From positions 123,257-187,256 of the forward strand of contig JAHCID010000003.1 in assembly GCA_026129405.1 (NCBI GenBank): a DNA stretch of 64,000 bases, written 5' to 3'. The notes under the pieces were generated by a model, which was given only the letters and a program-made list of their open reading frames with translations, had not been told where the DNA came from and searched no databases. The DNA comes from a bacterium (lineage in GTDB: Bacteria; Desulfobacterota; Binatia; DP-6). Positions 52,601 through 52,780 of the stretch are shown piece after piece. How positions within the stretch are numbered: the stretch's first letter is position 1; each line of letters starts with the position of its first letter. Position numbers and translations under genes: made by a program.

Positions 52601-52631
52601 CTTTAACTTGACCCAGCGAGGTCAGGAAGGG
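52601..52631 (+). promoter_or_regulatory. PyrR-binding-loop-like RNA hairpin in the pyr leader
   Basis: TGACC (52609-52613), loop CAGCGA, GGTCA (52620-52624) form a perfect 5-bp stem, flanked by CTTTAAC upstream and the purine run GGAAGGG downstream. The segment ACCCAGCGAGGTC closely matches the Bacillus PyrR target RUCCNGNGAGGYU; the deviations from consensus fall in the stem and remain paired. As the next gene is pyrR, this is very probably its target. The 3' flank doubles as the Shine-Dalgarno of the leader ORF. Confidence 0.65.
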
Positions 52632-52636
52632 TTTCG

Positions 52637-52780
52637 ATGCAGACCGGCCACATCGGGTCCACGACGGACCGCTCGCACGCCGCCGCCTCCCGGCAACGCC
52701 GCGGAGGCTTTTTTTGCGCCCGCGAGCCGCAGGAATCGTCATCGGCCATCGCAGGCGCGCCCGCAGGGAGCGCAGCATGA
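52637..52780 (+). CDS. 47-residue leader ORF of the pyr operon
   Basis: ATG at 52637 is preceded by AGGAAGGG with five bases between, a good ribosome-binding site. The frame stays open for 47 codons through the terminator hairpin (arms at codons 17-20 and 21-24, T-run as Phe-Phe codons) and stops at 52780, its TGA sharing ATGA with the pyrR start. Peptide begins [14 protein letters not shown]. The peptide itself need have no function; translation would cover the terminator and be coupled to pyrR. Similar in logic to E. coli pyrL, but combined with a PyrR site. Confidence 0.55.
52685..52715 (+). terminator. attenuator terminator of the pyr operon
   Basis: GCCTCCCGGC (52685-52694), loop AAC, GCCGCGGAGGC (52698-52708): a 10-bp stem with one bulged C, followed by seven T (52709-52715). 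It precedes pyrR by about 60 bases and lies within the leader ORF, so it must be read through for operon expression. Confidence 0.85.

Follow-up and report, generated by a model that had tools for sequence, protein, structure and literature searches.

How might a pyr operon be controlled when its first gene, pyrR, is preceded by an RNA hairpin, a short leader open reading frame (ORF) and an intrinsic terminator? This question is raised by a locus of a bacterium of the class Binatia (Desulfobacterota), located in a 64,000-nt stretch of contig JAHCID010000003.1 (here referred to as the window). The genes follow in the order pyrR-pyrB-pyrC-carA-carB, with pyrB to carB extending over 53332..60017, and the upstream neighbour of the leader is a fumarase/aspartase-like gene ending at 52509 (Table 1). 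NF003549 clearly identifies the pyrR product as an equivalog (246.7 bits at a cut-off of 138), and the protein retains the RIAHE segment as well as a segment ending in (V/I)GKN. Its relatives of solved structure are 1non, 1a3c and 1ufr; the last of these, which we take to be the T. thermophilus protein, is named pyr mRNA-binding attenuation protein.

Table 1. Features of the pyr leader and operon in the window (positions are those of the window).
Feature	Position	Strand	Basis
Probable promoter, TTGACA (52545-52550), 17 nt, TAGAGA (52568-52573)	52545..52573	+	Read from sequence
PyrR-type RNA hairpin	52598..52632	+	Fold, class covariation, class model match
Hairpin, lower stem	52598-52603/52627-52632	+	Fold
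Hairpin, internal loop UAA	52604-52606	+	Fold
Hairpin, upper stem	52607-52613/52620-52626	+	Fold
Hairpin, loop CAGCGA	52614-52619	+	Fold
Shine-Dalgarno (SD) of the leader ORF, AGGAAGGG, wholly within the hairpin 3' strand	52624..52631	+	Sequence
Leader ORF, 47 codons, ATG 52637, TGA 52778-52780, traverses the terminator	52637..52780	+	ORF translation; class conservation
Intrinsic terminator (attenuator), stem GCCTCCCGGC/GCCGCGGAGGC and T7	52685..52715	+	Fold
ATGA overlap of leader stop and pyrR ATG (52777-52779), predicted translational coupling	52777..52780	+	Sequence
pyrR, 180 aa, bifunctional pyr operon regulator / UPRTase	52777..53319	+	NCBIfam NF003549
pyrB	53332-54321	+	NCBIfam match
pyrC, dihydroorotase-like	about 54317-55631	+	Assigned by dihydroorotase-like sequence
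carA	55628-56779	+	NCBIfam match
carB	56799-60017	+	NCBIfam match

A preliminary description of the locus had reported a 47-codon leader that runs through the terminator and overlaps the pyrR start as ATGA, and these coordinates were confirmed from the sequence. It had further placed the leader SD directly next to a PyrR-like hairpin at 52609-52624. The observation is borne out, and in a stronger form: that segment covers just a portion of the upper stem, and the SD lies wholly inside the complete hairpin instead of abutting it. The hairpin folds with -13.5 kcal/mol (z -2.2), and the duplex of the leader SD with the universal anti-SD core amounts to -9.1 kcal/mol over 52610-52636. The terminator, with its stem at 52685-52708 and its T7 run at 52709-52715, folds with -17.7 kcal/mol (z -2.8); a one-base bulge in the stem is the probable reason why a simple terminator scan missed it. 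The promoter was likewise not called by a strict promoter scan. Across the class, 105 of 111 loci carry a TTGAC motif no more than 110 nt ahead of the hairpin, compared to 7.9 in shuffles. This -35 motif lies 36-40 nt ahead of the hairpin CTTT in most class loci (56 nt in the window), a spacing which suggests that transcripts there probably start at the foot of the hairpin.

Does the hairpin represent a PyrR site? The Rfam PyrR model (RF00515) matched 52596-52715 with 32 bits (E 0.13), below its gathering score of 54, which was reached by 8 of 99 other members of the phylum; this 115-nt model spans the Firmicute antiterminator/terminator region. The Rfam score was dropped as a classifier for the hairpin, since the match in the window remained below threshold. 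Features of the RF00515 type are present, namely a two-part CCUUU/AAAGG stem, an upper stem, a loop ending in GA, covariation and a pyr operon downstream. Among 36 distinct class hairpins, all seven upper-stem pairs varied on both sides, and 94% of the cells were paired (95.9% with the lower stem included). Double-changed cells of the upper stem numbered 50 versus 10.0 in shuffles, and none of 500 shuffles was as good. A class model (R1), built from class hairpins including that of the window, matched 52598-52632 with 49.2 bits as the sole site in its own genome. R1 detected the hairpin in 120 of the 148 class genomes and in 85 of the 95 good ones; many of these genomes were outside the training set, and the site nearly always occurred once per genome and ahead of pyrR. 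One class locus (L007) agrees in leader sequence and contig coordinates with L031 of Bacterium HR30, a member of Binatia, which fits the assignment of the class. From these sequence features, the hairpin is predicted to be a PyrR binding element that would be occupied in a UMP-dependent manner.

Two deviating arrangements were noted along the way. Three loci (L121, L129 and L130 of families f2 and f12) carry pyrR without a hairpin, directly after an M20-type amidohydrolase-like coding region. Genome G009 possesses a second PyrR hairpin ahead of pyrC (L228, at about 495-540 on the reverse strand); the leader ORF there starts with TTG and ends beside the pyrC start, and a T-run terminator is absent.

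The evidence for the leader ORF lies in its placement. Where a start codon was present, it was located 3-9 nt past AAGG in 104 of 106 class loci, with 6 nt being the commonest spacing. Of the 111 class loci, 65 have a leader whose stop coincides with the pyrR start, 45 of them with an exact NTGA overlap, and in another 25 the stop lies at or within the terminator. No leader ORF is found in 13 loci, where pyrR starts right behind the hairpin, and the remaining 8 leaders were unclassified, three of them having a GTG directly after AAGG. One locus was then taken from each of the 50 genera having a leader. The stop was at the pyrR start in 37 genera, whereas 1000 shuffles gave 10.3 ± 2.7 and never more than 21; an exact NTGA overlap was present in 22 genera, with 5.7 ± 2.1 expected. 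In a further 12 genera the stop fell at or inside the terminator, and in just one did it lie ahead of the terminator (7.2 ± 2.4 expected). Relatedness raises all these counts to some extent; even so, start and stop positions are kept over about 13 families. Mere openness of the leader ORF through the terminator was not above chance (25 observed, 21.3 expected from shuffles) and was dropped as evidence, because GC-rich DNA gives it by chance; in the +2 frame, openness is still more frequent. A terminator, that is, a GC-rich stem followed by a T-run, is present in 83 of 98 class leaders outside the direct layout. The preliminary description had expected a real control element to show covariation of the stem and conservation of the leader start and stop among relatives, and both expectations held.

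We consider it likely that PyrR charged with UMP masks the leader ribosome site, and that, when no ribosome loads, the terminator forms and the translational coupling of pyrR is lost. UMP-charged PyrR would bind the hairpin and lock the leader SD in its 3' strand, so that no ribosome could load on the leader ORF. The terminator would then form, and most transcripts would end before pyrR; those reading through would be poorly translated, as pyrR would rely on the leader ribosome stopping at ATGA. At low UMP, PyrR would leave, and a ribosome would translate the leader close behind RNA polymerase. By covering the terminator arm, it would let transcription enter the operon, and upon reaching ATGA it would re-initiate on pyrR. 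PyrR binding, UMP dependence, terminator use and translational coupling are predictions at this stage, which build on the covariation of the hairpin, the SD within it, the placement of the leader start and stop, and the terminator. Leaders that stop at pyrR and those that stop on the terminator have in common that both would place a ribosome over the terminator. One counterpoint is that the hairpin is already stable without PyrR at the folding energy given above. Ribosome access in the derepressed state therefore needs an explanation, which may lie in kinetic competition or in breathing of the weak A-U lower stem.

Control might instead be exerted on translation only, with PyrR masking the leader SD, the leader merely coupling to pyrR and the terminator-like element being minor or inactive. 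This would fit the family f6, in which the hairpin sits directly on pyrR without a terminator, the widespread NTGA coupling, and the second site of G009, where a leader ORF occurs without a T-run. It would also fit the leader of genome G001 (L005), which has kept the terminator stem but lost the T-run (GGAGGCTTCCAG), while the stop of its leader ORF still overlaps the pyrR start as GTGA, so that there coupling may be sufficient by itself. However, a GC-rich stem with a T-run is retained in the large majority of the non-direct leaders, and the 25 uncoupled leaders stop at or inside the terminator, a placement that is sensible only if the terminator matters. We therefore regard purely translational control as unlikely.

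A mechanism of the Bacillus type, with the hairpin as anti-antiterminator competing with an antiterminator and the leader ORF being incidental, appears even less probable and would come as a considerable surprise. In Bacillus, PyrR stabilises the anti-antiterminator (PMC4347634). The window shares with B. subtilis (RF00515) the PyrR regulator, the hairpin and an intrinsic terminator upstream of the pyr genes, with hairpin and terminator in the same order, and the weak Rfam match extends across the whole model. B. subtilis, however, uses an antiterminator (PMC4347634), and none of the Bacillus type was seen here: pairing between the terminator arm and the 3' half of the hairpin was 0.004 in the window, with a duplex z of +1.75. 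The class had a median of 0.011 and a mean of 0.12, as compared to a median of 0.452 and a mean of 0.35 in Firmicutes (p = 0.01, in a comparison of modest power). Furthermore, the leader stops are placed far beyond chance, and family f6 has no terminator at all. A sequence-dependent role of the leader product, as a functional small protein or an arrest peptide, is the least credible of the three: start and stop are conserved, but the peptides range from 10 to about 80 residues and differ in sequence even within a family, and the GGFF-like stretch that they share simply results from in-frame reading of the terminator arm and its T-run. In sum, the direct layout of f6, the two-way placement of the leader stops and the unsupported Bacillus alternative point to gating of the ribosome by PyrR.

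In all 13 loci of family f6, leader and terminator are missing and pyrR is served directly by the hairpin and its ribosome site, which indicates that the conserved unit is the hairpin together with the ribosome site. The PyrR proteins of f6 form one clade (support 100/99). Dating the switch to direct repression by the PyrR tree was dropped, as the tree leaves the position of f6 among the families unsettled. Our broader reading is that one hairpin would act as both PyrR site and ribosome site, while its output would be exchangeable within the class: dual control of transcription and translation by a leader ORF that guards an attenuator and then passes its ribosome on to pyrR, a leader ending on the terminator, or direct repression of pyrR. 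With somewhat less confidence than for the mechanism itself, we think that this arrangement is probably widespread and essentially undescribed outside Firmicutes and Actinobacteria. It would constitute an evolutionary link between translational repression and attenuation by PyrR, in which only the sequence downstream of one hairpin changes.

How does this compare to known systems? In the E. coli pyrBI operon, the sensor is UTP-dependent pausing of RNA polymerase. The leader in the window resembles pyrL in that the leader ORF crosses an intrinsic terminator, whose formation the translating ribosome prevents in E. coli. Across the class, leader ORFs run over the terminator to pyrR or end at it, and their stop placement exceeds that in shuffles; this is the layout of a ribosome-dependent attenuator, with the role of translation being predicted. 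A U-rich, UTP-sensitive pause region of the pyrL type is absent from 52632-52684, which is GC-rich with a longest U-run of 3, and the leader peptides are not conserved. The sensor would accordingly differ: these two properties suggest that it is PyrR, and that only the ribosome-versus-terminator logic is common to both. Further differences from pyrL are that an RNA-binding protein is predicted to gate ribosome entry, and that the leader is expected to be coupled, through its stop, to the first gene. The preliminary proposal that PyrR hides the leader ribosome site, with a terminator and lost coupling as the consequence, is thus supported in part: the covarying stem and the conserved start and stop speak for it, whereas its label of pyrL-type attenuation applies to the logic alone, and its claim that the combination was unknown outside Firmicutes and mycobacteria was too strong.

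For the pyr operon of Thermus ZO5, Van de Casteele et al. reportedly proposed in 1997 a PyrR mechanism that lacks an antiterminator and in which the terminator is blocked by a translating ribosome. PyrR, a leader before pyrR, a terminator, the lack of an antiterminator and the proposed blocking by a ribosome would be shared with the present locus, which belongs to an unrelated phylum, so that the combination of PyrR with a ribosome would not be unprecedented. The Rfam PyrR model matches in Thermus composti; one scan of genome contigs returned no Thermus locus, and our literature search found no paper on the Thermus ZO5 arrangement. Outside the class, leader stops were similarly placed in 6 of 11 loci of Omnitrophota (1.05 expected) and in 6 of 9 of other non-Firmicutes (0.8 expected), while Firmicutes, with 2 of 31 (1.3 expected), were not above chance. 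What seems to be new is the spread through the class and other phyla, the coupling by stop overlap, and the alternation with direct repression inside a single class.

Control by PyrR is usually described as Gram-positive, with antitermination in Bacillus and masking of the ribosome binding site in mycobacteria, whereas for Gram-negative pyr operons the stated modes of control are nucleotide-sensing termination or start-site switching (PMC13328217). PyrR of M. smegmatis acts as a translational repressor (Fields and Switzer 2007, as cited in PMC13328217). There, the PyrR hairpin lies over the ribosome site, whereas in the window a leader ORF and a terminator are interposed. The layout of family f6 is like the mycobacterial one, with the hairpin over the pyrR ribosome site, and Streptacidiphilus (L084) has the same layout as M. 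smegmatis. One PyrR-type RNA element would span the Gram-positive and Gram-negative worlds, and in about a dozen families it is predicted to be linked to a terminator that a ribosome protects.

Finally, some loci contain more than one leader or PyrR domain. Genome G156 has two near-identical pyrR leaders (L187 and L188, at G156:C1:55870 and 5109851) about 5 Mb apart by their contig coordinates, which may reflect duplication, circular-end redundancy or assembly contamination. In families f7 (L229:1719-3650, minus strand) and f2 (L230:1890-3845, minus strand), a second PyrR-like domain forms the C-terminal part of a protein of about 645 aa, which combines an aspartate carbamoyltransferase (PF02729, PF00185), a PyrI zinc domain (PF02748) and a phosphoribosyltransferase (PF00156). 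The gene of this fusion adjoins an ordinary pyrR in both cases, and comparable second PyrR matches within long frames occur in family f9.
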